In this document: positions 46,061 through 64,000 of the stretch, piece after piece
How positions within the stretch are numbered: position 1 is the first letter of the stretch
Layout of the letters: each line of letters opens with the position of its first letter
Assembly (NCBI RefSeq): GCF_003402535.2
Contig: NZ_AP025172.1
Coordinates: 1,302,001 to 1,366,000, forward strand
Length of the DNA stretch: 64,000 nt
Origin: Cupriavidus sp. P-10
GTDB lineage: Bacteria > Pseudomonadota > Gammaproteobacteria > Burkholderiales > Burkholderiaceae
Direction: 5' to 3'
Notes under the pieces: model-generated
Database searches by the model: none
What the model was told of the DNA's origin: nothing
The model's input: only the letters and a program-made list of their open reading frames with translations
Position numbers and translations under genes: made by a program

Positions 46061-46116
46061 GCTTGATCTCAGTAGAATAGGTAGCGTGGACGCGGTATTT
46101 CTTGGTGCCTCCAGGG

Positions 46117-47517: not shown

Positions 47518-47616
47518 GCTTTGTCTCCTCCATTGTTTTAGGAATGGTCGCGGCGTTCTCCGCGGCAACTGCGGTTCTCGCGCGCGCCTCCAGCTCGTCT
47601 CTTCTTTCGATGAGTT

Positions 47617-48393
47617 CTAGCCGTTGTCGCCGCCCGCAACCGGCAGCACAGCGCCCGTGATATAGCCTGCCTCGTCAGAGGCAAGGAACAGAATCGGCGC
47701 GATTTGTTCGTCGAGCGTGCCGTAGCGTTTGAAGAAAGTCGACTCAGTAACCTGCGTCACCGCCTCGCCCATCCAGGTCCTCTCTTGCTCGCTATCACCG
47801 GCCGCGTTGCGAGGCACGCGCCGGGGAGGCGCCTCGGTTCCGCCGGGTGCCGCAGCAACCACGCGGATGTTGTGCTCGCCATACTCCATCGCAAGCGACT
47901 GGGTTAACGCGTTGACACCGCCCTTTGCAGCCGAATACGGAACGCGGCGGATGCCGCGCGTTGCATTCGAGGAAACGTTGACGATGGTTCCGCGTCCTTG
48001 AGCGAGCATGTGCGGAAGCACCGCGTGGCAGCTGTACAAGGTCGGCATGAGCGAGCGGCGGATTTCCGCATCAATCTGAGCCGGTTCGAAGTCGGCATAG
48101 GGCCGCATGCGAATGGCTCCGCCGACGCCGTTTATCAGAATGTCAATTCGACCAAATTTCTCCACGGCGAAGGCCATCGTGGACGCCGCGCCTTCATAGG
48201 TCTCGAGGTCGGCAATGAAGCCGGCAGTGTCGGCCCCAACTGCTTCCGCCGCGACCTCGGAGACGAAGTCGGCGCGGTCGACAAACAGAACCTTCGCACC
48301 TTCAGCGGCGGCGCGTAGCGCGACGCCGCGTCCGATACCCTGCGCGGCACCGGTGACCACCATCACCTTGCCTTCGAATCGCCTGGCGCTCAT
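47617..48393 (-). CDS. benD: cis-1,6-dihydroxycyclohexadiene carboxylate dehydrogenase
   Basis: A 258-residue SDR: GKVMVVTGAAQGIGRG, INGVGG, catalytic Ser in NVSSNATRGI, Tyr and Lys in YSAAKGG, and a C-terminal YITGAVLPVAGGDNG. NGVGGAIRMRPYADF is characteristic of BenD/XylL. It rearomatises the benzoate cis-diol to catechol with loss of CO2 and formation of NADH. The start ATG overlaps the benC stop by four bases (48390-48393), which indicates coupling within benABCD. Confidence 0.9.
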   Translation of the reverse strand: MSARRFEGKVMVVTGAAQGIGRGVALRAAAEGAKVLFVDRADFVSEVAAEAVGADTAGFIADLETYEGAASTMAFAVEKFGRIDILINGVGGAIRMRPYADFEPAQIDAEIRRSLMPTLYSCHAVLPHMLAQGRGTIVNVSSNATRGIRRVPYSAAKGGVNALTQSLAMEYGEHNIRVVAAAPGGTEAPPRRVPRNAAGDSEQERTWMGEAVTQVTESTFFKRYGTLDEQIAPILFLASDEAGYITGAVLPVAGGDNG

Positions 48394-49412: not shown

Positions 49413-49450
49413 GTTACCTCCTGCGTCCTTTCTCATTCCAACCCGTGGCA

Positions 49451-49939
49451 TCAGACGTGGTAGACGTCCAGCACCTGGCGGATATAGTCGTTCTTGAGCG
49501 CAATCTTCTTGCTCGAAATCAGCAACCGGTCGTCAACGTTGCGGAAGGTGATGTAGGCGGTGCCGAAATACTGATCCGTGACCTTGTAACGATGGCTCAA
49601 CGTGTTGAAGTTGTATCGAACGTCGACTTCGTTATCCCGCTCCGCCAGCACTTCGATATTGGTAACGTGGTGGCTGGTGCGCGGCTCCGGCATCGACGCG
49701 CTGCTGCGCTCCGTTCTGATACGAAACACCCGGTCTTCCAGGCCGCCGCGGTCGGCGTAGTACATCAGGGAAATTTGGCTTTGCGGGTCTTCGGTGAGCT
49801 TGTCATCGTCATCCCAGGCCGGCATCCAGTAGGTGACGTCTGCTGTGTAGCAGGCCAACCACTCGTCCCACTGACGGTCATCCAGAAAGCGCGCCTCTTG
49901 ATAGAGAGCGCCACAGATCTTTTGATAGTCGATGCTCAT
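49451..49939 (-). CDS. benB: Benzoate 1,2-dioxygenase small subunit
   Basis: A 162-residue beta subunit of ring-hydroxylating dioxygenases (NTF2-like fold): [29 protein letters not shown], and [18 protein letters not shown]. It stabilises the alpha3beta3 oxygenase. Its ATG overlaps the benA stop by four bases (49936-49939). The length matches the family. Confidence 0.9.
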
Positions 49940-51294
49940 ACGGCTGCCTCCGCCTGTTCTTGGCGCAGGGCTTCGCGCATCACCCGCATCCAATATTCGT
50001 GTTGAACCACAAAGAGACCTTCATCTTCGCTACGCTCGCCCGAGATAAGCGGGTTCAAACCCATGCCTTTCGCATTCGCGTCAGGTCCATGGACCCACAA
50101 CGGTGCGCCGCGCGACATGTCGTTCCACATCGACGTCGTGCTGGCGTAACCCGCCTGGCACGCGCGGAACTCTTCGAGGTCGTCGCTGGTGCCCATGCCC
50201 GAGACGTTGAAGAAGTCTTCGTATTGACGAATGCGGATCGCGCGGCTTTCTGCGCTTTCGCCCTTCGGTGCGAAGCAGAAGATGCTGACTTCTGTCTTGT
50301 CGACACTGATCGGACGGACGACGCGAATCTGGGTACTGAACTGATCCATCAGGAACACGTTCGGATACAAGCACAGGTTTCGTGTCTGATTCACGATGTA
50401 CTTGGCTTTGTCTTCGCCAACGCGAGCTGTGATTTCGTCGCGATGTTGATAGACAGGACGCACTTCAGGATTCATCGTGTTGGTCCAAAGCAGGATATGG
50501 CCATGCTCGAAGCCATACACGCCCGCAACCGACTTGCTCCAACCATTTGCATCAACGGCCTTGGTGCCTTCGACATGGCGGCGGCCCATCGTTGCGGCAT
50601 AGTTCCAGTGCACGGTGCTGACGTGATAGCCGTCACAACCGTTTTCCATCTGCATCTTCCAGTTGCCGTCGTAGATGTACGAAGAGTTGCCTCGCAACAC
50701 TTCGAGACCATCCGGCGCCTGCGAGACGATTTGGTCAATGATGACCTTCGTCTCGCCGAGATAGTCCTCGAGCGGCATTACGTCTTCGCTCAGGCTGCCA
50801 AACAGGAAACCGCGATAGTTCTGGAAGCGCGCGACCTTCTTCAGGTCGTGCGATCCCTGCTTGTTGAACTGCACCGGATACTCGGTGGTCTTCTCGTCCT
50901 TTACCTTCAGCAGCTTGCCGGCGTTCGAGAAGGTCCAGCCGTGGAACGGGCAGGTGAAGCTGCCCTTGTTGCCGTGCTTGCGACGGCACAGCATGGCGCC
51001 CTTGTGAGCACACGCGTTGATGACCGCGTGCAACTCACCGGCCTTGTCACGCGTGATGACAATTGGCTGACGACCAATCCACGTCGTGTAGTAATCGTTA
51101 TTGTTCGGTACCTGGCTTTCGTGCGCGAGGTAGACCCAGTTGCTCTCGAAGATGTGCTTCATCTCGAGTTCGTACAAATCGGCGTTCGTGAAGATGTCGC
51201 GGCGACAACGGAAGACACCATTTTCCTTGTCATCCTGGACGGCGTTGCTCAGCAAATCGTCCAGTTGCCGTGCTTTATCGAAAGTTGCGGACAT
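49936..51294 (-). CDS. benA: Benzoate 1,2-dioxygenase large subunit
   Basis: A 452-residue Rieske oxygenase alpha subunit. Rieske ligands are Cys95-His97 (ACAHKG) and Cys115-His118 (CPFHGW). The mononuclear iron site is in [16 protein letters not shown]. It adds O2 to the ring of benzoate, or methylbenzoate, giving the cis-1,2-diol carboxylate. Residues that would tell benzoate from p-toluate preference cannot be judged by eye. It lies downstream of catA, separated by about 100 bases with a hairpin. Confidence 0.92.
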
Positions 51295-51366
51295 GAGTCG
51301 TCTCCCTATGCGGGCTTCGTGATCAAGCCCTTTGGCATCGGTTCAGATAATTCTTGCGGGGAAGTT

Positions 51367-51390
51367 GGCGGCCTGGCGAGAGAGGCCGCC
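51367..51390 (-). promoter_or_regulatory. Hairpin between catA and benA
   Basis: GGCGGCCT-N8-AGGCCGCC, a perfect eight-base stem, lies just downstream of the catA stop (51401) and upstream of benA (51294) on the same strand. With no T-run it is more likely to be a partial terminator or an mRNA processing or stabilising element that sets catA to ben ratios. Confidence 0.45.
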
Positions 51391-51400
51391 GCGTGAGGGG

Positions 51401-52336
51401 TTACGCCGTGGCGGAGGCGCGAGGGCGCTTCACAAGCTGGTTGTCCTTGCCTTGCACCAGCGGGGTCAACTCGATGTTGAATTCGATTTCCTTGTACGCG
51501 TCGCCCTTGAGGCCGAGCGCGGCACCGCCCGTCTTCTCGACAACGTGCGGCACAAGTTCTTCGCGAGTTGCATAAGCGAAGTCGTCCCAGATCAGCGGAT
51601 CGCCTTCGATATTGATCTGCGTCGTGAGCTTGCGAGTCTTGTCGCTCGTTACGAAGAAGTGTACGTGCGCCGGGCGGTTGCCGTGGCGGGCAATCACGTC
51701 AAGCAACTGTTGCGTGGCGCCTTGCGGCGGACAGCCGTAGCCAACGGGCATCAGCGTGCGGAACTCGTACTTGCCGTTAGCCCCGGTCTTCACCGCGCCG
51801 CGAAGGTTGAAATCGTCTTGCGCGCCGGTCGGATCGAAGTGCGAGTAAAAGCCCTTGGAGTTGGCGTGCCAGCATTCGACAACCGCATCGGCCACGGGCT
51901 TGCCGTCCGGTCCGGTCACAGTGCCACGGATGATGAGCGGACCCGCGTCTTCGTCGGCATTGAGATCAATCCTGGAGACGCCATCGCGCACCGGGGCGCC
52001 AGCAACATACAGCGGGCCTTCGATCGTGCGCGGCGTGCCACCGTGGATGTCAGCTTCACGGTCCTCTGCATCCATGCGGATGTCGAGATACTTCTCGAGA
52101 CCAAGGCCAGCGGCCAGGAGGGCCGCCTCACCATCTTGTCCGAGCTTGTTGAAGTAATTCACACCGGCCCAAATCTCGTCGGGCGTCATGTCGAGGTCAT
52201 CGATGGCCTTGAAGAGGTCGCTTAGCAGACGATGAGTAATCTGCTTGGTACGAGCGTTGCCCTCCTGGTTTCCCAGATTGGCAGCGGCCTTCAGCAGGTC
52301 CTGCACTTCCTTCGAGTCGAACACTTTGACACTCAT
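51401..52336 (-). CDS. catA: Catechol 1,2-dioxygenase
   Basis: A 311-residue intradiol dioxygenase. Iron ligands are Tyr in GPLYVAGAP, Tyr in SKGFYSHFD, and two His in RPAHVHFF. The N-terminal helical dimerisation region is present (MTPDEIWAGVNYFNKLG). It opens catechol between the hydroxyls to cis,cis-muconate, or 4-methylcatechol to 3-methylmuconate. It is the first gene of the minus-strand ben unit and faces a divergent LysR gene over a 174-base region with two ATAC-N7-GTAT-like sites. Confidence 0.92.
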   Translation of the reverse strand: MSVKVFDSKEVQDLLKAAANLGNQEGNARTKQITHRLLSDLFKAIDDLDMTPDEIWAGVNYFNKLGQDGEAALLAAGLGLEKYLDIRMDAEDREADIHGGTPRTIEGPLYVAGAPVRDGVSRIDLNADEDAGPLIIRGTVTGPDGKPVADAVVECWHANSKGFYSHFDPTGAQDDFNLRGAVKTGANGKYEFRTLMPVGYGCPPQGATQQLLDVIARHGNRPAHVHFFVTSDKTRKLTTQINIEGDPLIWDDFAYATREELVPHVVEKTGGAALGLKGDAYKEIEFNIELTPLVQGKDNQLVKRPRASATA

Positions 52337-52397
52337 GTCTGCTCCTAAACTTTCTGTGCTTTGGTGGGGTAAACCCTTGTTTCAAGTCGATCTGAAT

Positions 52398-52412
52398 GTA
52401 CTCAGAAGGTAT
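52398..52412. promoter_or_regulatory. BenM/CatM-type operator, site 1 (catA side)
   Basis: GTAC-N7-GTAT (ATAC-N7-GTAC on the minus strand) differs by one base from the ATAC-N7-GTAT sequence bound by BenM and CatM. It lies 62 bases upstream of the catA start. Confidence 0.6.
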
Positions 52413-52492
52413 AATGCGGCCTTGAAACAGAGCGTGATGGCAGAATAGAGGACGGCAAACAGGTGAGTCCAACACCGTTTTAGTATCGGATC

Positions 52493-52507
52493 ATATCTTG
52501 GAGGTAT
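52493..52507. promoter_or_regulatory. BenM/CatM-type operator, site 2 (LysR side)
   Basis: ATAT-N7-GTAT, one base from the consensus ATAC-N7-GTAT. It overlaps the ribosome site just before the LysR start at 52511, a position suited to autorepression. Confidence 0.5.
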
Positions 52508-52510
52508 TGT

Positions 52511-53434
52511 ATGGAGCTGCGACATCTTCGCTATTTTGTAGCGGTTGCCGAGGAACGCAACTTCACGCGCGCAGCAAAGCGGCTCCATATCGCGCAGCCG
52601 CCGTTAAGCCGCCAAATACAGCAGCTCGAAGAAACACTGGGGGTCCAGCTATTCGAACGAAGCTCTCGTCCGCTCAAGCTCACCGAGACAGGCAAGTTTT
52701 TTTACTCGCACGCAGTGCATCTCATTGCGCAGACGAACGAGCTGGAATCCATGACAAGGCGTGTTGGCAGCATCGAGCGCAGTCTGTCCGTCGGCTTTGT
52801 GGGGTCCACGCTCTACGGCATGCTTCCAAAGATCATTCGGCGATTCCGGGACGAGAACAAGTCGGTCGAGCTCAGCCTCCACGAGATGTCGACGATGGAC
52901 CAGATTCGCGCCCTCAAGGACGGACGCATCGATGTAGGGTTCGGTCGGATTCGACACGAGGATGCGAACATCCGCCGGGTGATTCTCCGCGAGGAGAAAA
53001 TGATCGTTGCACTTCCTGTCGGTCATCCGCTCTCAACCTCGAAGCCGGTGCTCGCGCTTCGGGACCTCATCTACGAAACACTCATTGTTTTCCCCAAGGC
53101 ACCGAGGCCAAGCTACGCGGATCAGGTTCTGTCGGCTTTCCAGGAGCGAGCCCTCACCCCTCGGCGCATCTATGACGTGCGCGAATTGCAGATTGCATTG
53201 GGGCTTGTCGCGGCAGGAGAAGGGATTGCAGTCGTCCCAAGCAGCGTCTATGGGCTGAAGCGCGACGACGTGAGCTACATGGAACTGGACGACCCAACCC
53301 TCACCTCGCCCATTATCATGAGTATGCGTGCGATGGATGAGTCGCGTGACATCAAGGAAATGCTGGAACTGATTTATCGACTCTACGAGGAAGAGGGAAT
53401 TCCCTATGTGCCTCGCACGGACAAGGGGTCATAG
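52511..53434 (+). CDS. LysR-family regulator of benzoate/catechol genes (BenM/CatM-like)
   Basis: A 307-residue LTTR. The N terminus MELRHLRYFVAVAEERNFTR through LHIAQPPLSRQIQQLEE is the BenM/CatM/CatR style. The effector domain contains the usual hinge and SVGFVGSTLYGMLPKIIRRF. It is divergent from catA-ben, with two consensus-like operators in between. BenM-type proteins respond to benzoate and muconate. It converges tail to tail with the second LysR gene at 53574-54470. The exact name (BenM or CatM) is left open. Confidence 0.85.
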   Translation: MELRHLRYFVAVAEERNFTRAAKRLHIAQPPLSRQIQQLEETLGVQLFERSSRPLKLTETGKFFYSHAVHLIAQTNELESMTRRVGSIERSLSVGFVGSTLYGMLPKIIRRFRDENKSVELSLHEMSTMDQIRALKDGRIDVGFGRIRHEDANIRRVILREEKMIVALPVGHPLSTSKPVLALRDLIYETLIVFPKAPRPSYADQVLSAFQERALTPRRIYDVRELQIALGLVAAGEGIAVVPSSVYGLKRDDVSYMELDDPTLTSPIIMSMRAMDESRDIKEMLELIYRLYEEEGIPYVPRTDKGS

Positions 53435-53573
53435 AACGGTCGTCGTTGCCGACATGTGCGGTAGCGCGTCTCCCGCCAATTGATCGGCAGATGTGAAGGC
53501 GCCGATTTGGATACTGGGGTCAGCAGCCCGGCGCTGGCGTTTTCCTATCTGGCACCGACCCAGAACTAGGACG

Positions 53574-54470
53574 CTATGCCTTGAGGGGGGACTCCGCGTG
53601 CTGCAACACCCATTCCACCGCGCGCGCCAGAAAGGGCGACGTGTCGCCGGCCCGCATGCTCATGATCACTGGCGAGACGAAACCAGGTGCTTCAATGGGG
53701 TAATAACGCACGTCGTCGCGGTGCAAGCGTTGTACGGAGGCCGGCACCAAGGTGATGCCCAGACCGGCCGCGACTAGCCCCAGCGCGGTTTGCAGTTCAT
53801 TCGCTTCCTGTATCACCCGCAACTGAAGCCCGCGGGCGCGAAAGAGTGAGAGCAGATGATCCGCGTAGCTGGGCCTTGGTCGCGCAGGGTAAAGCACGAA
53901 CGGCCGCCGCGCCAGCTCTTCCGGCGTGAGCGCGTCGTCACCTCGAACTGCGACGGCAGCCGGCAACGCCGCGATCAACGGCTCGTTCATTACAACCGTT
54001 TGCACGATGCCGGGATCGTTCAACGCAATGCGACCGAAACCCAGGTCAATGCGCCCGGCCTTGAGTGCGGTCGCTTGCTGAACCGTGATCATTTCGCTGA
54101 GCCCTACTTCCACTTGGCTATCGGCACCTCGCAGTTCGCGAATCAGCTCTGGCAAGAAGCCGTACAGTACCGACGGCACGAAGCCAATGCCAAACCAGCG
54201 CTTCTCGTTGCGACCGATACGCCGCGTGGCGTCGATGGTTTCCTCCAGCCGCTGGGTCATTTGTAGCGATTGCTCCAACAAGAAGCGCCCAGCCTCGGTC
54301 AGGCGCATTCCGCGACCGACGCGGTGAAAGAGCTCCACGCCGATCTCATCCTCGAACTGGCGGATCTGTCGGGACAAGGGCGGCTGGGCCATATGCAAGA
54401 TCGAAGCCGCCCGCGTCACATTTAACTCCTGAGCGACGGTCTGGAAATAGCGTAGGTGGCGAAGCTCCAT
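53574..54470 (-). CDS. LysR-family regulator of the catB side (CatM/CatR-like)
   Basis: A 298-residue LTTR of the same subfamily: MELRHLRYFQTVAQELNVTR to LHMAQPPLSRQIRQFED, then WFGIGFVPSVLYGFLPELIR. It faces catB across 114 bases that contain a perfect ATAC-N7-GTAT site. It probably senses muconate and controls catB-catC and the genes after them. It and the LysR at 52511 are paralogues arranged tail to tail between their targets. Confidence 0.85.
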   Translation of the reverse strand: MELRHLRYFQTVAQELNVTRAASILHMAQPPLSRQIRQFEDEIGVELFHRVGRGMRLTEAGRFLLEQSLQMTQRLEETIDATRRIGRNEKRWFGIGFVPSVLYGFLPELIRELRGADSQVEVGLSEMITVQQATALKAGRIDLGFGRIALNDPGIVQTVVMNEPLIAALPAAVAVRGDDALTPEELARRPFVLYPARPRPSYADHLLSLFRARGLQLRVIQEANELQTALGLVAAGLGITLVPASVQRLHRDDVRYYPIEAPGFVSPVIMSMRAGDTSPFLARAVEWVLQHAESPLKA

Positions 54471-54484: not shown

Positions 54485-54499
54485 ATACCTGTACGGTAT
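54485..54499. promoter_or_regulatory. CatM/BenM-type operator, perfect consensus
   Basis: ATACCTGTACGGTAT fits ATAC-N7-GTAT exactly and is itself almost a full dyad. It lies 15 bases upstream of the minus-strand LysR start (54470) and 86 bases upstream of catB, as expected for the high-affinity recognition site. Confidence 0.7.
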
Positions 54500-54529
54500 G
54501 CTATCAGACACGAATAGTCTTGGACACCC

Positions 54530-54544
54530 ATACGGTCGAGATAC
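54530..54544. promoter_or_regulatory. CatM/BenM-type secondary operator (half-site match)
   Basis: ATAC-N7-ATAC, with one good half-site, is 45 bases downstream of the perfect site and 41 bases before catB. In BenM/CatM systems the activating second site often departs from dyad symmetry, so this is a candidate. Confidence 0.45.
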
Positions 54545-54584
54545 ATACTCAGAGGCAACTCAAATAGCACCGAAAAGGTATCGA

Positions 54585-55712
54585 ATGACCCATGCAACGG
54601 TTACGGCGGTCGAAGCAATCCTCGTCGACCTACCGACCATCCGGGCCCACCAGCTCGCCATGGCGACCATGCAGCAGCAGACGCTGGTTATCGTGCGGCT
54701 GCAGTGCAGCGACGGCATCGAAGGCATCGGCGAGGCCACGACGATCGGTGGTTTGTCCTACGGCGACGAAAGTCCCGAAGGCATCAAACTCACCATCGAC
54801 ACCTACCTGGCTCCCGCGCTGGTCAGCCAGGACGCCGCCAACGTGCATGCGGCCATGGCGCGCCTGAACAAGGTGGCGCGCGGCAATCGCTTCGCCAAGT
54901 CCGCACTGGAAACCGCATTGCTGGATGCGCAGGGCAAGCGCCTCGGCGTGCCGCTGGCCACGCTGCTGGGCGGCGCCGTGCGCGACACGCTGCCGGCGCT
55001 GTGGACCCTGGCCAGTGGCGATACCGGGCGCGATATCGCAGAAGCTGAGCAACTGCTGGAAGCCCGCCGCCACAACACGTTCAAGCTCAAAATCGGCCGC
55101 CGTGCCGTGCGCGAAGACGTGGCCCACGTGGCCGCGATCAAGCGCGCGCTGGGCGATCGTGCCCGCGTGACCGTTGACGTGAACCAGGCCTGGAACGAGG
55201 CCGAGGCCGCCACCGGCATCGCCATGCTGGAAGCCGCCGGCATCGACCTGATCGAACAACCCACGCCACGCGAACAGCGTGCCGCGCTGGCCCGACTGGC
55301 CGCACGCTTTGTCGTGCCGATCATGGCCGACGAGGCGGTGTGCGGGCCGGAAGACGCGATGGAGCTGGCACGCATCGGTGGCGCCGACGTGTTTGCCCTG
55401 AAGATCGCCAAGTCCGGCGGCATCTTCGGCATGCTGCGCACTGCCGCGGTCGGTGATGCGGCCGGCATCGCGCTGTACGGCGGCACCATGCTGGAAGGCA
55501 GCGTCGGCACCATCGCCGCCGCCCACGGCTTCTGCACGCTGCCGCAGCTCGCATGGGGCACGGAACTGTTCGGGCCGCTGCTGCTCAAGGACGATATCGT
55601 CACGGCGCGCCCGGAGTACCGGGATTTCGCGCTGCACCTGCCGCAGGGGCCGGGCCTCGGGCTCGCGCTGGACGAGGACAAGCTGGCGCACTATCGCCGA
55701 AAGCAAGGCTGA
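54585..55712 (+). CDS. catB: Muconate cycloisomerase
   Basis: A 375-residue enolase-superfamily enzyme (MLE subgroup). Catalytic and metal positions: the KxK pair in FKLKIG, Asp in VDVNQAW, Glu in LIEQPTPR, Asp-Glu in MADEAVCG, and Lys in ALKIAKSGG. ATG at 54585. It converts muconate to muconolactone, and 3-methylmuconate to 4-methylmuconolactone, the substrate of MmlI encoded downstream. First gene of the plus-strand cat group. Confidence 0.9.
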   Translation: MTHATVTAVEAILVDLPTIRAHQLAMATMQQQTLVIVRLQCSDGIEGIGEATTIGGLSYGDESPEGIKLTIDTYLAPALVSQDAANVHAAMARLNKVARGNRFAKSALETALLDAQGKRLGVPLATLLGGAVRDTLPALWTLASGDTGRDIAEAEQLLEARRHNTFKLKIGRRAVREDVAHVAAIKRALGDRARVTVDVNQAWNEAEAATGIAMLEAAGIDLIEQPTPREQRAALARLAARFVVPIMADEAVCGPEDAMELARIGGADVFALKIAKSGGIFGMLRTAAVGDAAGIALYGGTMLEGSVGTIAAAHGFCTLPQLAWGTELFGPLLLKDDIVTARPEYRDFALHLPQGPGLGLALDEDKLAHYRRKQG

Positions 55713-55748
55713 ACTCAGCCCGCCCCAACACGATCGGAGAAACCCTCA

Positions 55749-56026
55749 TGCTTTATCTGGTACGGATGGACGTCAACCTGCCGCACGACATGCCCGCGGA
55801 CCAGGCCGATGAGATAAAGGCGCGCGAGAAGGCCTACGCACAGGACCTGCAGCGCCAGGGCAAGTGGCAGCAGCTCTACCGCGTGGTGGGCGAATACGCC
55901 AACTACAGCATCTTCGATGTCGAATCCAACGACGAACTGCACACGCTGCTGGCCGGCCTGCCGCTGTTCCCGTACATGAAGCTTGCGGTCACGCCGCTGG
56001 CGAAGCATCCGTCGTCGATACGCTGA
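55749..56026 (+). CDS. catC: Muconolactone delta-isomerase
   Basis: A 92-residue protein of the muconolactone isomerase family: MLYLVRMDVNLPHDM, RQGKWQQLYRVVGEYANYSI, FDVESNDELH, LPLFPYM. It moves the double bond of muconolactone to give 3-oxoadipate enol-lactone. It follows catB by 36 bases after CGGAGAAACCCTC. A related but distinct protein (MmlJ) is at 62832-63107, probably for the methylated lactone. Confidence 0.88.
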
Positions 56027-56057
56027 ACGATTCAATCAAAAGACAGGACGGAGACAA

Positions 56058-57071
56058 ATGAAATCCCTGCTGCAACGGCTGTTCCCGCAGCCATTGACCA
56101 CACCTGACGCCCGCACCGGCGCCGCCGCGCTGACGCTCGTCCTGGCCGCGGCCAGCGCGCCCGCCCATGCAGCGTGGCCCGACCACCCGATCCGCTGGAT
56201 CGTGCCGTTTCCGGCCGGCGGCGCGATGGACAATATCGCGCGCACGCTGGGTGAAGATATGTCGCGCACGCTCGGTCAGGCCATCGTGGTGGAGAATCGC
56301 CCCGGCGCCGGCGGCAACATCGGCGCGGAGCTGGTTGCGCGCGCGCCGGCCGACGGCTACACCATGATCATCGTGGCCAACGGCATGGCGGTGAATCCGG
56401 CCCTGTACGGCAAGCTCAGCTACGATCCGGTGAAGGATTTTGCCCCGGTGTCGCTGCTGGCGGTGGTACCCAATGTGCTGGTTGCAAGCAAGGCCAAGAC
56501 GCCCGCGAAGACGGTAGCGGAGGTGGTGGCCAATGCCAAGGCGCGGCCGAGCAAGTACACCTATGCGTCGGCGGGCAACGGCACCTCGATCCACCTGGCG
56601 GGCGAGTTGTTCACTTCCATGGCGGGCGTCGACCTGCTGCACGTTCCCTACAAAGGCAGTGGCCCGGCCATGACCGATCTGCTTGGCGGCCAGGTCGACT
56701 ACATGTTCGACAGCATTACCTCGGCCAAGCCGCATATCGATTCCGGCAAGCTCACCGCCATCGCGGTAACGACCAGCAAGCGCTCGACGGCGCTGCCCAA
56801 TGTGCCTACCGTAGCCGAGTCCGGGTTGGCTGGCTATGAGCTATCGCCTTGGTTCGCCGCCTTCGTGCCGGCTAAGACCCCGCAGCCGGTGATCGAGTCG
56901 CTGAACCGAGCCATGCTCGAGGCACTGAAGAAACCGGAGGTGCAGAAGCGTCTGGCCTTGATCGGTGCTGAGCCGATCGGCAGCACGCCGTCCGCCCTGC
57001 GCGACCACCTGGCGAAGGAAAGCCAGAAGTGGGGCGTGCTGATCCGCGAGCGTGGCATTCGCGCCGACTGA
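56058..57071 (+). CDS. Bug/TctC-family periplasmic solute-binding protein
   Basis: A 337-residue Bug protein with a Sec signal peptide ending near AHAAW, then HPIRWIVPFPAGGAMDNIAR, VENRPGAGGNIGAEL, HVPYKGSGPAMTD and LPNVPTVAESG. ATG at 56058 follows ACGGAGACAA. It lies 31 bases after catC and probably shares its transcript. No TctAB genes are present; it may bind an aromatic acid or lactone for another importer or for sensing. Confidence 0.85.
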   Translation: MKSLLQRLFPQPLTTPDARTGAAALTLVLAAASAPAHAAWPDHPIRWIVPFPAGGAMDNIARTLGEDMSRTLGQAIVVENRPGAGGNIGAELVARAPADGYTMIIVANGMAVNPALYGKLSYDPVKDFAPVSLLAVVPNVLVASKAKTPAKTVAEVVANAKARPSKYTYASAGNGTSIHLAGELFTSMAGVDLLHVPYKGSGPAMTDLLGGQVDYMFDSITSAKPHIDSGKLTAIAVTTSKRSTALPNVPTVAESGLAGYELSPWFAAFVPAKTPQPVIESLNRAMLEALKKPEVQKRLALIGAEPIGSTPSALRDHLAKESQKWGVLIRERGIRAD

Positions 57072-57431
57072 CCGCACATCGTGCCTGGTCGACCAAATGG
57101 ACATTGTTTGGCGACCAGCGCATTTGCTGAAGCTCGCATATACGCTGGTTCAATACCTGATTGCTTGGCTTCAAGCGCGAGCAACTCGCTGGTCGCCTGC
57201 TCCAAGGATGTATTCCGTCATCGGGCTCTCGGTCCACGCTATGCTCGGCCTGACACACATTCGAGTGTGAAATGCACGCATGAATCTGCCTGAAACCCCT
57301 CTTTTGGAATGAAAAATTGGCGGCGGGATGAAGATCACCGATGCTTGACCTCCGCTAATACGGGCGTTGGCCATGCCGCAAGACAGATCCCAAGGCGGCC
57401 CATCGCAACACCAGAAAAGGAGACACGGAAC
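57072..57431. other. Gap without a recognised gene before the MBL hydrolase
   Basis: 360 bases. Frames exist on both strands but none has a ribosome site or family motif. The long minus-strand frame overlapping this area and the MBL gene is an antisense artefact. A promoter for the MBL gene may lie here, but I could not define one. Confidence 0.5.
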
Positions 57432-58322
57432 ATGATGCAATCGCGCACCCTCGGCGACCTGAAGATCACCCGCATCCTCGAATACGCGGGACCCACGCAT
57501 GATCCCGCCTTCCTCTTCCCGGACATCGACCGCGCCGTGCTCGATGCCAACGCTGGCCTGATGGCGCCGCACCATTGGATACCACACATGAACAAGCTGA
57601 TCGTGACGATCCAGTTCTGGGTTGTGCACGCCGGCGACAACATCATCGTGGTGGATACCGGCGTGGGCAACTTCAAGCCGCGCGCCGGCATTGCGCGCAT
57701 GAATATGCTCAACACGCTGGTGCGCGAGTGGATGATCGCCGCTGGCGCACCGCCGGAGAAGGTCACTCATGTAGTGATGACGCACTTGCATGCGGACCAT
57801 GTCGGCTGGAACACTATCTGGCAGGACAACCGCTGGGTACCGACCTTCCCCAATGCGCGCTACTACATCCCCAAGGATGACTTTGTCTTCTGCGACGAGG
57901 GTCGCAACAAGGAGCCGGGCGTGGTGGATGTATTCGGCGAGTCGTTTTTTGACAGTGTCATGCCAGTGGTCACAGAAGGCCTGGCAGAAATGATATTGCC
58001 CGGACAGGAGATCGCCAACTGCCTGCAGGTCGAGGCCGCCTCGGGTCACAGCCCTGGCCAGATCGCGTTCCGCGTCCGCTCGCAGGGTGAGGAAGCGATA
58101 TTCTGCGGCGACATCCTGCACAGTCCGCTGCAAATCGTGCGCCCTGACGTGAATTCCGGCTATTGCATCCGCCCCGACTTGGCGCGCAGTACGCGCCTGG
58201 CCTTCCTCAACCAGGCCGCTGACCGCGAGGCACTGGTCTTGCCGGTGCATTTCGGCGAGCCCTACTGTGGCTACGTGCGCCGACAGGGCGAAGGCTTTCG
58301 CTTCGAGCCCGCCACCTGGTGA
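57432..58322 (+). CDS. Metallo-beta-lactamase-fold hydrolase
   Basis: A 296-residue MBL-fold protein. The metal motif HxHxDH is His118, His120, Asp122 and His123 (MTHLHADHVGW). Later metal His and Asp fall in ASGHSPGQIAFRV and FCGDILHSP, and VDTGVGNF forms the early strand. MBL proteins of this type include lactonases (AHL-type) and other ester hydrolases. It sits between the cat and mml genes, where a lactone (3-oxoadipate or 4-methyl-3-oxoadipate enol-lactone) must be hydrolysed and no PcaD gene is seen. That role is inference from context. ATG at 57432 follows AAGGAGACACGGAAC. Confidence 0.75.
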   Translation: MMQSRTLGDLKITRILEYAGPTHDPAFLFPDIDRAVLDANAGLMAPHHWIPHMNKLIVTIQFWVVHAGDNIIVVDTGVGNFKPRAGIARMNMLNTLVREWMIAAGAPPEKVTHVVMTHLHADHVGWNTIWQDNRWVPTFPNARYYIPKDDFVFCDEGRNKEPGVVDVFGESFFDSVMPVVTEGLAEMILPGQEIANCLQVEAASGHSPGQIAFRVRSQGEEAIFCGDILHSPLQIVRPDVNSGYCIRPDLARSTRLAFLNQAADREALVLPVHFGEPYCGYVRRQGEGFRFEPATW

Positions 58323-58420
58323 CCAATGGTAGCCACGGCACGGCCGCTTTCCCGCCGCGCGCCTACCCGCCCTCGCGGGTATGAGCGTGGCACAGTCAGT
58401 TTCTTCGTGAGAACTGCGGC

Positions 58421-59335
58421 ATGGCCGTTCCCTTCGACATCACCGATTTCCGACTTTTCGTCAATGTAGCGGAGACGCGCAGCCTGACCCGTGGCGCGGA
58501 GCGTTCCTTCCTTTCCGTGCCGGCAGTCAGCAACCGCATCAAGAATCTCGAAGACACGCTGGGTGTGCGCTTACTGGAGCGCTCGCCCCAGGGGGTAGCG
58601 TTGACGGCGGCCGGCGAGGTTTATCTCCAGCACGCCCGCGTGGTGCTCGCCGAACTGGAGCGGCTCACAGGCAACCTCCAGCCGTTCACTGCGGGCCTTT
58701 CGGGGCAGCTCAAGCTGGTGGCCAACACCACGGCCATCACGGAGTACCTGCCACCGGTGATCGGCGACTATCTCGCCAGCCACCCGGACGTGCGCATCGA
58801 CGTACGTGAGCGCCTGAGCGACGACATCGTCCGCCTGGTGCGCGAAGGTGCCACCGATCTGGGCATCATCTCCGGCAATGTGCCCACCACGGGCCTGCAG
58901 GCGGTGCCCTTCGTCAAGAGCACGCTGATTCTGGTCGCACCACTTGGCCATCCGCTGCTTGCGCAGCGCGATGTCTGGTTCGAGCAGGCGCTGGAATACG
59001 CCTTCGTCGCGCTGCTTGAAGGCAGTGCCTTCCAGATGTTCATGACGCGTGCTGCCGGCGCGCTGCACAAGCCCATGACCATCCGCGTGCATGTGGCCAG
59101 TTACGACGCCATCTGCCGCATGGTCGCCGCCGGCGCTGGCATCGCCATCATGCCAAAGGCCGCGTTCGCGCGCCTCAAGGGCGAGCAGCCGATTGGCGCC
59201 TGCAACCTGCGCGATGACTGGGCCATCCGCACCTTCCAGGTTTGCGCGCGAGACCTGGAAGGCCTGTCGAGCTTCGCCCGCGAGTTCGCCAACCGGCTGA
59301 TCGGCCGCTACGCACCGGGCGGCAGCGCTGGCTAG
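58421..59335 (+). CDS. LysR-family regulator of the mml genes
   Basis: A 304-residue LTTR: FDITDFRLFVNVAETRSLTR, LSVPAVSNRIKNLEDTLGVR, then RLSDDIVRLVREGATDLGII. It precedes mmlF on the same strand with a 253-base gap that contains a T-N11-A inverted repeat. It is the likely regulator of mmlFGHIJ (the mmlR position), but the name is not assigned. Confidence 0.8.
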   Translation: MAVPFDITDFRLFVNVAETRSLTRGAERSFLSVPAVSNRIKNLEDTLGVRLLERSPQGVALTAAGEVYLQHARVVLAELERLTGNLQPFTAGLSGQLKLVANTTAITEYLPPVIGDYLASHPDVRIDVRERLSDDIVRLVREGATDLGIISGNVPTTGLQAVPFVKSTLILVAPLGHPLLAQRDVWFEQALEYAFVALLEGSAFQMFMTRAAGALHKPMTIRVHVASYDAICRMVAAGAGIAIMPKAAFARLKGEQPIGACNLRDDWAIRTFQVCARDLEGLSSFAREFANRLIGRYAPGGSAG

Positions 59336-59492
59336 CTCCCTTCCCTGCTTGCATCTGCCCCGTACCCGCTCGGTGTCAGCACCGAGACCGGCTCGCGTGG
59401 GTACGTTGTCGCCCGCGTTCGCAGCTATGGAGATTGACGAGCATAGCGCGCCTCCCGCCGCAAGCAAGCGTGCTGTTGCCCGGCTTCACCAC

Positions 59493-59513
59493 GCCTTAAG
59501 CCAACGCTAAGGC
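59493..59513. promoter_or_regulatory. Putative LysR-type operator upstream of mmlF
   Basis: GCCTTA-N9-TAAGGC, with an internal T-N11-A spacing, 75 bases upstream of the mmlF start. It is a candidate site for the LysR protein encoded just before it. Confidence 0.45.
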
Positions 59514-59588
59514 TGCTTGCAGAACCCGAAATTGTGAAGCCACCGACTGCATGGCAATCTAGTCTCGCAGACAACAAGGACGTGAGAC

Positions 59589-60287
59589 ATGATCGATAAG
59601 CTTTACAGAACGGCGCGCGAAGCCATGGACGATGTCCCCGATGGCGCCACCATCGCGATTGGCGGATTCGGCGGCGCCGGCATGCCCGACGAACTGATCG
59701 ACGCCCTGATCGAGCAGGGCGCCAGGGACCTCACGGTGGTCAGCAACAACGCCGGCAACGGCGACACCGGACTGGCGGCGCTGCTGAAAACACGACGCGT
59801 GCGCAAGCTGGTGTGTTCGTTCCCGCGCCAGCGCGACGCCCATGTATTTGAAGCGCTATACCGCGCCGGCCAGATCGAGCTGGAAGTCGTGCCGCAAGGC
59901 ACGCTGGCCGAGCGCCTGCGCGCCGCCGGAAGCGGCATCGGCGCCTTCTACACGCCCACTGGTTACGGCACGCTGCTGGCTGAGGGCAAGGAGACCCGCC
60001 AGATCGACGGTCGCGACTACGTACTCGAGTACCCCCTGCCTGTCGATGTCGCGCTGATCAACGCCGCGGCCGCCGACCGCTGGGGCAACCTCATCTATAG
60101 CAAAACCGCGCGCAACTTCGCGCCCGTCATGGCAATGGCGGCAAGCCAGACGATCGCGGCCGTAGCTCGCGTATGCGAACTAGGCGACCTAGACCCCGAG
60201 GACGTCGTGACGCCCGGGATTTTCGTTAGCCGCGTCGTCCTGCGCGACGGCGCAGCCGCACAAGCTGAAGTCATGCAGGCAGGGTGA
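59589..60287 (+). CDS. mmlF: 3-oxoadipate / 4-methyl-3-oxoadipate CoA-transferase, alpha subunit
   Basis: A 232-residue class I CoA-transferase alpha chain: IAIGGFGGAGMPDELI, VVSNNAGNGDTGLAALL, FIRVSFPRQ-like SFPRQRDAHVF, and VFAPTGYGT-like FYTPTGYGTLL. It pairs with the next gene; its stop lies within the start region of that gene. The complex moves CoA from succinyl-CoA to 3-oxoadipate or its 4-methyl analogue. The mml name rests on the downstream mmlHIJ genes; PcaI is the alternative. Confidence 0.78.
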   Translation: MIDKLYRTAREAMDDVPDGATIAIGGFGGAGMPDELIDALIEQGARDLTVVSNNAGNGDTGLAALLKTRRVRKLVCSFPRQRDAHVFEALYRAGQIELEVVPQGTLAERLRAAGSGIGAFYTPTGYGTLLAEGKETRQIDGRDYVLEYPLPVDVALINAAAADRWGNLIYSKTARNFAPVMAMAASQTIAAVARVCELGDLDPEDVVTPGIFVSRVVLRDGAAAQAEVMQAG

Positions 60288-60292
60288 GAACG

Positions 60293-60955
60293 ATGGATCA
60301 AGTGGCAAGGAATATGCTGGCCGCTCGCGTGGCGCGGGACATCCCCGACGGATCGTATGTCAACCTCGGCATCGGGTTGCCCACGCTGGTGGCCAACCAC
60401 CTGCCCCGGCACCGCGAAGTCATCCTGCACAGCGAAAACGGTGTGCTGGGTCAGTGGTCGGCAGCGGAGCCGGGGCAGGAAGACTGGGACCTGATCAACG
60501 CCGGCAAGGAAGCCATCCGCCTGGAGCAAGGCGCGGCATTCTTTCACCATGCCGATGCCTTCGGCATGATGCGCGGCGGCCATCTCGACATCTGCGTGCT
60601 TGGCGCGTTCCAGGTATCGGAGCATGGCGACCTGGCCAACTGGCACACCGGCGCGCCCGATGCCATCCCGGCCGTGGGCGGCGCGATGGATCTGGCCATC
60701 GGGGCCCGGCGGGTGTTCGTCATGATGGACCATCTCACCAGGGACGGGGCCAGCAAGCTGCGCCGCCAGTGCAGCTATCCCTTGACCGGCTTGCGCTGCG
60801 TCAGCCGCGTCTACACCGAACTCGGCACCTTCGCCATCGACCCGCGCGGCGTGTCGGTCATCGAAACCGTCGGCGACATGTCGCCACAGGCGCTGCAGGC
60901 CGTGACCGACGTGGAACTCGACTTCACCACCCTGCTACGGCCCGAATACGCATGA
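60293..60955 (+). CDS. mmlG: 3-oxoadipate / 4-methyl-3-oxoadipate CoA-transferase, beta subunit
   Basis: A 220-residue class I CoA-transferase beta chain. The catalytic Glu lies in ILHSENGVLG. GAAFFHHADAFGMMRGGHLD and VMDHLTRDGASKL-like blocks are present. I take the ATG at 60293; a GTG at 60284 overlapping the previous stop would add three residues. It works with MmlF. Confidence 0.78.
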   Translation: MDQVARNMLAARVARDIPDGSYVNLGIGLPTLVANHLPRHREVILHSENGVLGQWSAAEPGQEDWDLINAGKEAIRLEQGAAFFHHADAFGMMRGGHLDICVLGAFQVSEHGDLANWHTGAPDAIPAVGGAMDLAIGARRVFVMMDHLTRDGASKLRRQCSYPLTGLRCVSRVYTELGTFAIDPRGVSVIETVGDMSPQALQAVTDVELDFTTLLRPEYA

Positions 60956-61043
60956 AACCGGGCACCCGCGCCGGTGCCTGTTCAAACACAGGGTGCAACG
61001 CCGGCCGCCCATCCAGACAGATCGACACAGAGAGGAGACAAAC

Positions 61044-62327
61044 ATGCTGACTTGGTACAAGACTGGGACACCCCAGCAAAAGAAGACATTCTGGGCCTGC
61101 TATTCCGGCTGGGCCCTGGATTCGTTCGACATGCAGATGTTCAGCTTCCTGCTACCCGCGCTGACGCTCGCGTGGGGGCTGAACAAGGCGGAGGTCGGCG
61201 TGCTCGGGACCGTGGCGCTGATCGTCACGGCGATCGGCGGCTGGGGTGCCGGCATCCTCAGCGATCGCTACGGCCGTGCCCGCATCCTGGTCTTTGCCAT
61301 CGTCTGGTTTACGTTCTTCGGTGTGCTGGCCGGCTTCGCCCAGACGTATCACCAATTGCTGGTGGCACGCACGCTGCAGGGCCTCGGCTTTGGCGGAGAA
61401 TGGGCCGTCGGCGCCGCGCTGATGGCTGAAGTCATCGACCCGAAGCACCGCGGCAAAGCCATGGGCTATGTGCAATCCGGCTTTGCTCTCGGCTGGGCAC
61501 TGGCGGCGGTGGTCGCAACGCTGCTGCTGGCCTGGTTGCCGCAGGACATGGCATGGCGGGCGGCGTTCTGGATCGGCATCATCCCGGCCTCAATCGTGCT
61601 GTTTATCCGCCGGCATATCAAGGACGCTCCCATGTTCGAGCGTGCCCGGCAGAGCAGCGCGCCGCGCGCGTCGCTGGCTTCGGTGTTCAATCGCCGGTAC
61701 GCGCGTTCGCTGATCCTGTCGAGCGTGCTGGTGATCGGGCTTCAGGCCGGCTGCTACGCCATCCTGGTCTGGCTGCCGTCCCTGCTGAGCCAGCGTGAGG
61801 TCGCCGCCACCTCGCGGATCGTCACCGTCTTCATCATGGCCTTCGGCTCGTTCTGCGGCTTCGCGGTGGCGGCGGACCTGTGCGATCGCATCGGGCGCCG
61901 CCCCACGCTGATCATGCTGTCGATCTGTGCCTGGATCGTCACCGTCAGCTATATGCTGCTGCCGCTGAACCCGACGCTCACCGCCATCCTGGGATTCCTG
62001 GTGGGCTTCTCGGCCATCGGCATGTTCGCCGCGCTGGGACCGTTCCTCAGCGAACTGTTTCCCACCAACGTGCGCACGACCTGCATGGGCTTCGCCTACA
62101 ACGTGGGCAAGTCAGTCGGCGCGGGCTCCGTCGTCGGCGTGGGCGTGCTGTCCACTCATATCGGCTTGGCCAATGCCATGGGCGCCTTCTGCCTCGCAGC
62201 CTATGCGTTCGCGGTCTTCGGCATGCTGCTGCTGCCCGAGACCCGAGGTATTGCCATCGAGAACATCGGCACCGAGGACGACGGCGACACGGTCACGCTC
62301 GCCAACCCGGCGCGCGCACCTTCCTGA
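61044..62327 (+). CDS. mmlH: MFS transporter, aromatic acid/methylmuconolactone type
   Basis: A 427-residue AAHS-family permease: WACYSGWALDSFDMQMFSFL, GGWGAGILSDRYGRARIL, LGFGGEWAVGAALMAEVI, and a C-terminal LLLPETRGI. ATG at 61044 follows AGAGGAGACAAAC. In C. necator JMP134 the transporter gene mmlH precedes mmlI and mmlJ, the same order as here, so it probably imports 4-methylmuconolactone. Substrate choice is inferred from that order. Confidence 0.8.
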   Translation: MLTWYKTGTPQQKKTFWACYSGWALDSFDMQMFSFLLPALTLAWGLNKAEVGVLGTVALIVTAIGGWGAGILSDRYGRARILVFAIVWFTFFGVLAGFAQTYHQLLVARTLQGLGFGGEWAVGAALMAEVIDPKHRGKAMGYVQSGFALGWALAAVVATLLLAWLPQDMAWRAAFWIGIIPASIVLFIRRHIKDAPMFERARQSSAPRASLASVFNRRYARSLILSSVLVIGLQAGCYAILVWLPSLLSQREVAATSRIVTVFIMAFGSFCGFAVAADLCDRIGRRPTLIMLSICAWIVTVSYMLLPLNPTLTAILGFLVGFSAIGMFAALGPFLSELFPTNVRTTCMGFAYNVGKSVGAGSVVGVGVLSTHIGLANAMGAFCLAAYAFAVFGMLLLPETRGIAIENIGTEDDGDTVTLANPARAPS

Positions 62328-62396
62328 AGGGCATCGCACGATTGCCAGGTTCACAAGCCATTGACCATGGTTAATCCGACAACAAGGAGAATCCAC

Positions 62397-62738
62397 GTGA
62401 TTCGCATGCTGTACCTGCTGGTCAAGCCAGAAGGCATGACCGACGAAGCCTTCCGCGCTGAATGCCTGCGCCACTACGAGATGTCGCACGATGTGCCTGG
62501 CCTGCACCGGTATGAGGTCCGCCTCGTCGCCGGGCAGCCGACCGACACCCATGTGCCTTTTTTCGACATCGGGCATGTGGACGCCATCGGCGAATGCTGG
62601 TTCGAGAACGAAGCTGACTACGACCGCTACATGGCTTCCGACGTCCGCAAGGCGTGGTTCGAACACGGCAAGACCTTTATCGGCCGGCTCAAGCCATTTC
62701 GCACCGCATCCGTCGCCGGCGCGAGGAGCGCTGGCTAG
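62397..62738 (+). CDS. mmlI: 4-methylmuconolactone methylisomerase
   Basis: A 113-residue EthD/ferredoxin-like fold protein. A GTG at 62397 follows AAGGAGA with a seven-base gap and gives the family N terminus [12 protein letters not shown]. His26, Tyr39, His52 and Cys67 fall at the positions described for the enzyme of C. necator JMP134, where His52 and Cys67 are the catalytic pair (recalled knowledge). It moves the methyl group of 4-methylmuconolactone to give 3-methylmuconolactone, so that the lactone can be isomerised. It lies between mmlH and mmlJ in the known order. Confidence 0.88.
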
Positions 62739-62831
62739 GCACCGCCTTACCCGATTTAGCGCATAGGCTGAAGCCGGACCGGAGGCGGCCCGGTTCCAGC
62801 CCCACTTACCTGGAACAGACAAGGAGACATC

Positions 62832-63107
62832 ATGCTTTACTGCGTTCAGATGGACGTGAAGATTCCCGACTCAGTCCCCGCAGACCGTGCCGAAGCCATC
62901 AAGGCGGCGGAAAAGGCGCGGGCGATCGAAATGCAGAGGGCCGGAAAATGGCCACACCTCTGGCGCGTGGCGGGGCGCTACGCCAATATCAGCATCTTCG
63001 ATGTAGAAAGCCATGACGAGTTGCATGATCTGCTGTCATCACTACCCCTATTCCCCTACATGACCATCCAGGTCACGCCGCTGGCACGACATCCGTCTGC
63101 GATCTGA
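62832..63107 (+). CDS. mmlJ: Methylmuconolactone isomerase
   Basis: A 91-residue muconolactone-isomerase family protein (MLYCVQMDVKIPDSV, AGKWPHLWRVAGRYANISIF, LPLFPYMTIQV). It resembles CatC at 55749 but is clearly diverged. Placed after mmlI, it should convert 3-methylmuconolactone to 4-methyl-3-oxoadipate enol-lactone. ATG at 62832 follows AAGGAGACATC. It is the last recognisable gene of the island. Confidence 0.82.
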   Translation: MLYCVQMDVKIPDSVPADRAEAIKAAEKARAIEMQRAGKWPHLWRVAGRYANISIFDVESHDELHDLLSSLPLFPYMTIQVTPLARHPSAI

Positions 63108-64000
63108 GCAGCGTCACCACTGAATCGAAATGACCCCTCTCCGGCGCTGGAAGGTTCGCGCCGGCAAGGCAATACCCGCTGGCGTTGTCACGCTAACGGC
63201 CCCCTCTGATCCGACATGGCGGACGACGCACGCCAAGGCTCCACGTTGCGGATCGGCCGGAATACCAGGTTTGGCCCATCGACCATTTCGCCAGACGCCG
63301 TCTGAAAAATGCACACCGCCAAGTCGCTCTGGTGCAGCTCCGAAAATGGACGCCTTGTTCCTTGTCTGTGATCGGAGCGTTCTTCCTGAGCCACGACAAG
63401 TGGGAGACAGTCACGGAACGCAGATCAGCCTTACTGAGAAAGGAGTTCCAAGACCTGCGCTCGCAGCCATGTCAAAGCAGGTCTTCATGGTTTGCGAGGA
63501 TGCCATCCCATCGCAAGCTTGTAGTGTTCGGTCGGAAACGGCAGCTCAAACATGTCGACAGACGGCGACACGTGTCGCAAAGCATGGAACACGATATCAC
63601 TTTGTATGTCGGGTTGGATGTGCATAAGGACTCGATCACGGTCGCCTACGCAATCGGCATGGGTGAGGTCGTCGTTCCGCGCCCATACCTGTATGCCGGG
63701 ATCCTGGTGTTTGCGACCATTGGCGTCTATGGCATGCGCCAGTCGTGGTTCGACCTGGTAGGTGCCATTGGCATAGACAGCCGGCTCAGCGAAGGCACAC
63801 AGCAAGCCATCTCCGCGCCACGGCACCCTGTCACCTCTGCTAAGTCAGACCCGGCTGGCTTAGCACAACGGTGACTCCCTACTTGATGCCGATGCTGACC
63901 ACTACGCCAGGATGGAAGTCTCGCAAAGAGGCTAATCCCACCCTGCCAGCTCGCCGGTCTTGGACGCATGGGCCGCACAGCGTCTTCGAGCCAAGGCGCA
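63108..64000. other. Right edge: IS110 scrap and unassigned DNA
   Basis: 893 bases with no intact gene. Apart from the IS110 transposase start at 63584, I recognise nothing. Frames on both strands are interrupted or have no motifs. It looks like further mobile-element debris similar to that at the left edge. Confidence 0.5.
63584..63672 (+). pseudogene. IS110-family transposase, N-terminal fragment
   Basis: From an ATG at 63584 the frame gives MEHDITLYVGLDVHKDSITV and then AYAIGMGEV, the start of IS110 (DEDD) transposases with its first catalytic Asp. After about 30 residues homology stops and unrelated sequence follows in the same frame. Only the first catalytic motif is present. Confidence 0.75.

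Follow-up and report, generated by a model that had tools for sequence, protein, structure and literature searches.

How genes for the conversion of methylated lactones came to stand behind a benzoate locus, and whether the two together form a built-in route for methylated catechols, are the questions raised by a 64,000-nucleotide stretch of Cupriavidus sp. P-10 (NZ_AP025172.1, positions 1,302,001 to 1,366,000; here called the window), which lies on C3 (1,635,938 bp), one of the five contigs that make up the 9.08-Mb genome. Between 54585 and 63107 the window carries ten plus-strand genes, catB, catC, tctC, mmlL, mmlR, mmlF, mmlG, mmlH, mmlI and mmlJ. To the left of catB stand, on the minus strand, genes for a BKACE-family enzyme and an MFS transporter, benDCBA and catA, followed by a benM-like gene on the plus strand and by catR on the minus strand, divergent from catB; the right half of the locus thus consists of catR/catBC-tctC and the published operon mmlLRFGHIJ. 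With curated family cutoffs exceeded and the mml order found again in other genomes, this gene content is far beyond chance. It is quite probably an ordinary benzoate/catechol ortho-cleavage locus to which the known mmlLRFGHIJ genes have been fused, and it would have arisen by recombination of three blocks, with loss of a promoter segment of about 460 bp. The gene content, the gene order, the mosaic and the missing segment are read directly from the DNA.

Comparison with related loci indicates that the locus is a mosaic of three blocks joined by recombination: module 1, BKACE-MFS-benDCBA-catA-benM (45215-53443), which is present in other Cupriavidus in other surroundings; module 2, catR-catBC with the first part of tctC; and module 3, the end of tctC and the mml genes. 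Modules 2 and 3 meet inside tctC (56058-57071, plus strand; a TctC-type receptor gene, PF03401). Plasmid pHG1 of C. necator H16 (NC_005241) holds two catBC-tctC copies, and 948 sites in their alignment with the window discriminate copy 1 from copy 2. A single breakpoint at 56831-56849 separates 641 such sites on its left (585 copy-1, 34 copy-2, 22 neither) from 307 on its right (10 copy-1, 279 copy-2, 18 neither). Within tctC, the ratio of copy-1 to copy-2 sites flips from 138:8 to 1:55; identity to the genome G033 is 95.1% on the left of the breakpoint and 76.7% on its right, and identity to copy 2 is 77.2% and 97.3%. G033 and G020, relatives that lack mml, resemble copy 1 on either side (118:24 and 119:23 on the left, 38:16 and 37:16 on the right), while the window flips, and the tctC of the window is therefore read as the recombinant gene.

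The junction between modules 1 and 2 lies at 53443-53544. In all seven loci with other surroundings, the DNA match to the ben block stops at 53426-53443, the end of the benM/catM-like LysR regulator gene (52511-53434, plus strand; 95-100% identical in 7/7 loci), and similarity to the cat locus on contig C2 of G033 begins at 53544. The BKACE match is present in five of these seven loci, and a different catB (73-82%) comes next in three. Among the right flanks of the ben block in 12 other genomes, two of which (G010 and G014) are short because the contig ends, the match stops at the end of benM in 11; G016 returned no match to this end of the block. The cat block, for its part, stands beside another ben type in C. 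metallidurans CH34 and G052, as it does in decayed form in G033 and G020, its LysR regulator gene catR (53574-54470, minus strand) being 80-87% identical to that of CH34, G033 and G020 and 95% identical to a 59-residue remnant on pHG1. The match of the window to other cat loci starts inside the terminal codons of the benM found there, as would be expected from the exchange of one ben block for another, although this point rests on some 30 bp only. With one breakpoint seen within about 20 bp and another within about 100 bp, the locus illustrates cleanly how such a route is assembled in nature from existing blocks.

Relics of window-type catR occur beside benM in two of the 12 ben loci examined. 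In G039, a 119-bp piece of catR, which shares 96.6% identity with the window and 77-81% with three other catR genes, lies about 25 bp after benM. It is followed by an inverted 106-bp match to mmlJ, 76% identical to the window and 79% both to pHG1 and to a separate mmlJ of G039, and by a second, direct match of 51 bp (90% to the window, 88% to pHG1, 82% to that separate mmlJ); both pieces are short and were called mmlJ over catC by score only. On contig C3 of G033, an 80-bp piece of the end of catR lies about 430 bp after benM, with 92.5% identity to the window and 73% to the catR on C2 of the same genome. The joining of ben to cat may therefore be older than the source strain, or the relics may be explained instead by transfer between lineages.

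Fragments of two unlike insertion sequences bracket the locus, an ISKra4-type transposase at 44086-44907 (NCBIfam, under the cutoff) and an IS110-like piece at about 63598-63700, recognized by eye. A composite transposon was considered and rejected, as there are no direct repeats of at least 25 bp in 42-64 kb, and only two inverted pairs, one inside benM/catR and one inside tctC. A match of window positions 537-2123 beside the ben block of G033 was likewise discarded as a displaced flank: it covers a 390-residue minus-strand frame (937-2109) that by eye resembles an ISL3-like transposase.

Comparison across the genus used 60 Cupriavidus genomes, the source genome included. A match to mmlI was found in 15, near full length in 14, and 13 of these 15, the source genome among them, keep the order mmlL-R-F-G-H-I-J; one of the ordered sets (G024) is cut by a contig end, and in two (G043, G058) genes are split by frameshifts that may be sequencing errors. 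A catB gene is present in 51/60 genomes (E <= 1e-100) and is near mmlI only in the source genome. A pattern scan of 84,980 species genomes returned 32 loci with an mmlI relative.

The ordered sets differ in what precedes mmlL. At 54485-54549, catB has on the plus strand a CatR-type promoter (ATACC-N5-GGTAT, TTGGAC, CATACT; named from motif likeness), a layout shared by the catB of pHG1 copy 1 and of CH34 and found with one mismatch in G033 and with two at the catB on contig C1 of the source genome. A CatR-type promoter laid out as at catB (ATACC-N5-GGTAT, then GTCTTGGAC) also lies 233-345 bp before mmlL in 6/13 loci compared, those of pHG1, where ATACC-N5-GGTAT has one mismatch, and of G058, G010, G039, G034 and G019; the comparison omits G024, G026 and G038, which have an mmlI match with the start of mmlL missing. 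The window is without the approximately 460 bp that carry this promoter in pHG1 (missing at 57250-57280, exact ends differing between BLAST and MAFFT), and no CatR-type site with up to two mismatches was found in the 700 bp before its mmlL. What is kept is a proximal block (57281-57349), a candidate operator or promoter of the mml operon that is alignable and well conserved in 13/13 loci and has the common motif TGAAACCC...CTTT.GGA...AAATT; it may be an MmlR site. The CatR, MmlR and LysR-site assignments are putative and based on likeness of motif.

The intact CatR-type promoter of catB sits 2.9 kb upstream of the mml genes on the same strand. No terminator-like site was found on the plus strand from catB to mmlL in a scan of little power (nine sites in total against 6.9 expected), and read-through from the catB promoter into mml is possible. 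A tentative and rather doubtful extension is that of regulatory capture, in which fusion behind catR-catBC and loss of the CatR-type promoter at mmlL would have placed mml under the catB promoter, and in which a ben-catR-...-mml super-locus, as the relics in two genomes suggest, would once have been more widespread and repeatedly taken apart. If capture is true, muconate from ordinary benzoate would pre-induce removal of the methylated dead-end product. The locus thereby offers a testable claim on which promoter drives the added mml genes.

The order of events, which like the enzyme activities, transcription and growth substrates discussed here is a prediction from the DNA, would be as follows. 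The ben block would have been joined to catR-catBC, and the mml block would have come in through homologous recombination inside tctC, with a diverged catBC-tctC copy like that beside mml on pHG1 as the partner; the approximately 460 bp with the CatR-type promoter would also have been lost, leaving mml with the proximal block and the catB promoter 2.9 kb upstream. Several observations weigh against this reconstruction. Because six further loci (G041, G016, G006, G007, G003 and G043) are also without a CatR-type promoter before mmlL, two of them (G007, G043) showing a two-mismatch match and no GTCTTGGAC, its absence before the mmlL of the window is not unusual; the proximal block kept in all 13 loci may itself be promoter enough; and mmlF is preceded, in the window (at 59362) as in the matching position of pHG1, by a weak ATACC-like match with two mismatches and no GTCTTGGAC. 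In tctC, the more distant loci of CH34, G052 and G014 do not side clearly with copy 1 (16:31, 19:29 and 25:27 to the right of the breakpoint), so that the polarity of the breakpoint rests on G033 and G020 only, and deletion between tandem copies would be indistinguishable, as to the parental molecules, from recombination of a plasmid with another replicon. Finally, BenA scores under the benzoate-dioxygenase cutoff, so that benzoate is no more than its putative substrate.

An earlier note, made from this DNA without database searches, had named catB, catC, mmlF to mmlJ, catA and benABCD, and all of these are open, in the order and on the strands it gave. For the span from catB to mmlJ, its list was right for seven of the ten genes and passed over tctC, mmlL and mmlR, which lie between catC and mmlF. 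The window carries the Cupriavidus-type set mmlLRFGHIJ in order on one strand, with all seven genes open and their proteins 96-99% identical to those of pHG1. MmlI, the predicted 4-methylmuconolactone methylisomerase (62397-62738, plus strand, GTG start), is above both curated cutoffs (NF053569 'MmlI', 194 bits against 180; Pfam MmlI, PF09448, 256 against 29.6 bits, 4e-77), and its nearest solved relatives are 2ifx and the methylisomerases 3hds/3hf5/3hfk. His26, Tyr39, His52 and Cys67, presumably the active-site residues, are all present, as the note had said; in a 19-row alignment, the first three are invariant and Cys67 is replaced, by Val, in one row. MmlI thus falls in its named family next to solved methylisomerases, and in a tree with CatC, a comparison that the note had proposed, MmlJ (62832-63107, plus strand; PF02426 (MIase); TIGR03221 159 bits against 131) groups with mmlI-linked isomerases, apart from catB-linked CatC, with branch support of 92/87. 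The tree has 37 rows, 33 of them different, some genomes being entered twice under two locus ids; 29 MmlJ rows fall on one side (92/87) and seven CatC rows on the other (93/87), in 92% and 90% of bootstrap trees, and one row belongs to neither. A side observation from the same contig is an MmlI-like fragment of 23 residues with one stop (C3:1606726-1606794), about 242 kb from mmlI.

MmlL (57432-58322, plus strand; PF00753; 79% to the MT1 gene at the same place) is an MBL-fold hydrolase and the predicted 4-methyl-3-oxoadipate enol-lactonase; among solved structures, it is closest to organophosphorus hydrolases and lactonases of this fold. Deletion of mmlL is reported to halt lactone opening in Pseudomonas reinekei MT1 (Marin et al. 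2010). PMC6449761 cites that paper for MmlL as the enol-lactone hydrolase. For the mml cluster of C. basilensis B-8, PMC3560178 lists mmlL as a Zn-dependent hydrolase and states that no isoenzyme of enol-lactone hydrolase was found there. The remaining plus-strand mml genes encode a LysR-family regulator (mmlR, 58421-59335; 99% to pHG1, 71% to MT1), CoA-transferase subunits A (mmlF, 59589-60287; TIGR02429 393 bits against 128.5) and B (mmlG, 60293-60955, scanned from 60284; TIGR02428 273 against 244), and an MFS transporter (mmlH, 61044-62327; PF07690; 99% to pHG1).

The genes of the unmethylated branch were assigned with varying strength. On the plus strand, catB, for muconate cycloisomerase (54585-55712; TIGR02534 590 bits against 335, scanned without the first Met), and catC, for muconolactone isomerase (55748-56026; TIGR03221 165 against 131; CatC side of the tree), pass their cutoffs. 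On the minus strand, so do catA, for catechol 1,2-dioxygenase (51401-52336; TIGR02439 442 against 392), benD, for benzoate diol dehydrogenase (47617-48393, scanned from 48384; NF040811 440 against 380), and the BKACE-family gene (45236-46060, scanned from 46069; NF053568 491 against 350; PF05853), whose product is a predicted 3-oxoadipate:acetyl-CoA acetyltransferase and would be the exit of this branch. The adjoining benA (49936-51294, minus strand), for a dioxygenase large subunit of divergent type, reaches 741 bits against a TIGR03229 cutoff of 781, where BenA of CH34 scores 901. Also on the minus strand, the dioxygenase small subunit gene benB (49451-49939) is an open reading frame in the same place in 7/7 loci with no NCBIfam family at E <= 1e-100; the reductase gene benC (48390-49412), whose counterparts in 7/7 loci hold this position at 95-98% identity, is named from position and likeness; and the aromatic-acid MFS transporter (46117-47517, scanned from 47520; TIGR00895 383 bits) is under its cutoff of 418.55. 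Records of Burkholderia, Caballeronia and Paraburkholderia also contain DNA that matches this ben type at about 79-82%.

Benzoate would accordingly pass through BenABCD, CatA, CatB, CatC and an enol-lactonase encoded elsewhere to the BKACE that splits 3-oxoadipate; two homologues above the PcaD/CatD cutoff are present, one on C1 beside the second catB and one on C2. Any 4-methylcatechol would be converted by CatA to 3-methylmuconate and by CatB to 4-methylmuconolactone, from which a methyl shift by MmlI would give 3-methylmuconolactone and a double-bond shift by MmlJ the enol-lactone. MmlL would open the lactone to 4-methyl-3-oxoadipate, and CoA transfer by MmlFG would yield the CoA ester, the substrate of a thiolase encoded elsewhere. 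The earlier note had the route avoid 4-methylmuconolactone, which is mistaken, as the pathway passes through this compound and consumes it; its chain also went without the lactone-opening step, for which mmlL is present. Whether 4-methylmuconolactone is cleared or accumulates decides whether mixtures of benzoates and methylaromatics can be mineralised.

The idea that one locus holds the whole route stands as far as candidate genes from 4-methylcatechol to the CoA ester are concerned, but not beyond: no homologue of MT1 MmlC (the thiolase), of MmlK or of the thioesterase-like protein was found in the window at E <= 1e-5, and the complete MT1-type pathway, with mmlC and mmlK in the cluster, is not present there. 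The closest homologues of MmlC (65%) and MmlK (55%) in the source genome are adjacent on C2 (C2:1550749-1553281). This pair was considered as the missing tail and set aside, being common in the genus and having MaoC, TctC, acyl-CoA dehydrogenase and class III CoA-transferase neighbours, which suggests another acyl-CoA pathway. MmlK-like genes occur in 28/60 genomes at E below 1e-80 (52/60 at E <= 0.001) and MmlC-like genes in 29/60 (E <= 1e-130). Association with mmlI is weak for both (MmlK-like, 10/14 with mmlI and 18/46 without, p = 0.064; MmlC-like, 11/14 and 18/46, p = 0.014), in counts made by hand, uncorrected for kinship and with G038, whose mmlI is broken, counted as lacking it.

An alternative with only slightly less than an even chance is that mml serves 4-methylcatechol from methylphenols, or 4-methylmuconolactone imported by MmlH, and that the ben/cat neighbourhood is incidental. 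The mmlH transporter gene is present in 13/13 ordered Cupriavidus clusters, PMC3560178 puts the mml genes of C. basilensis B-8 under phenol derivatives, and C2 of the source genome carries phenol-hydroxylase family genes, a possible further source of 4-methylcatechol; these genes and mml are, however, on different contigs.

That the locus is instead a dedicated, selected channel for 4-methylbenzoate, with ben and mml as one pathway, is unlikely. Candidate genes for all steps from 4-methylbenzoate to 4-methyl-3-oxoadipyl-CoA do lie within 18 kb, and the catR relics beside benM, accompanied in one genome by mmlJ pieces, point to a linkage older than the strain, but both relic genomes have lost the ben-cat-mml linkage and the locus has three separate regulator genes, benM, catR and mmlR. 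In 12 of the 14 other mmlI genomes, followed for 16.5 kb or more, neither benA nor catB was found upstream of mmlI; of the other two, G006 shows no catB in the 8.2 kb upstream of mmlI, and G024 could be followed for 4.5 kb only, ending inside mmlL. BenA of the window type (86% or more), present in 13/60 genomes, is not associated with mmlI (5/14 with mmlI, 8/46 without, p = 0.16). No evidence tying BenABC to 4-methylbenzoate was found, and co-occurrence lends such a tie no support.

It is more improbable still that the mml operon is silent and decaying after loss of the CatR-type promoter, as a relic of a pHG1-like plasmid. The promoter is indeed absent before mmlL, and the mml sets of G026 and G038 have decayed, but the seven genes of the window are open and closely similar to those of pHG1, and the proximal block is kept. 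Least probable is that BKACE, rather than MmlFG and a thiolase, also finishes 4-methyl-3-oxoadipate: a BKACE of a family named for 3-oxoadipate is in the locus and mmlC is not in the window, but MmlFG has been retained intact, C2 encodes a thiolase with 65% identity to MT1 MmlC, and according to PMC6449761, where 3-keto acid cleavage is the predicted activity of the COG3246 (BKACE) enzyme, the COG3246 gene of H16 belongs with the CatM/BenM catechol regulon.

Several known systems resemble the locus. C. metallidurans CH34 has the same left-half layout, benDCBA-catA/benM/catR/catBC-tctC, but with another ben type (BenA 63%) and with no mml cluster in the 30 kb examined. C. pinatubonensis HN-2 (G034) differs in having no catB in the 17.7 kb upstream of mmlI, the catB of that contig being about 199 kb away. 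The operon mmlLRFGHIJ, in the same order as in the window, is described for C. pinatubonensis/necator JMP134 and C. basilensis B-8 in PMC6449761 and PMC3560178, of which the former also gives it for H16, together with catBC-COG3181 on the H16 plasmid; the mmlH-mmlI-mmlJ order of JMP134, which the earlier note had cited, agrees with this account, and mml is listed in JMP134 in PMC2842291. The operon of P. reinekei MT1 has homologues of mmlL, R, F, G, H, I and J at 66-79% protein identity, but its cluster also has mmlC, the thioesterase-like gene and mmlK. Two further arrangements were observed: in Pseudomonas sp. NFACC02, one of the 32 loci of the pattern scan, a full MT1-type mml operon is directly followed by catA and catB in the opposite orientation, which joins cat to mml in a second and different way, and a plasmid of C. 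oxalaticus X32 carries a decayed mml cluster in which mmlI, mmlJ and a truncated mmlH were all that was found.

No description of catBC-mml joined also to ben-catA was found in the open-licence full-text literature, a scope outside which most subscription papers fall. The closest system is pHG1, where the order from catB to mmlJ is the same and 98% of the query is matched at 92% DNA identity. It differs in that a catR remnant-catB1-catC1-tctC1 set lies about 12.5 kb upstream of catB2-catC2-tctC2-mmlLRFGHIJ, whereas the window has one copy; in that the catC of the mml-adjacent copy is split over two frames (L018 15123-15414) and absent from the gene table of the record, the other catC copies on pHG1 being open; and in the CatR-type promoter before mmlL, which the window is missing. 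In the 37 kb of pHG1 examined, ben and catA had no match. The joining of catBC to mml, which the earlier note had singled out, is thus already public in the H16 pHG1 record and is not new; the enzymology is plausible and already known, and what the Cupriavidus sp. P-10 locus adds to these systems is its mosaic assembly and the loss of a promoter.

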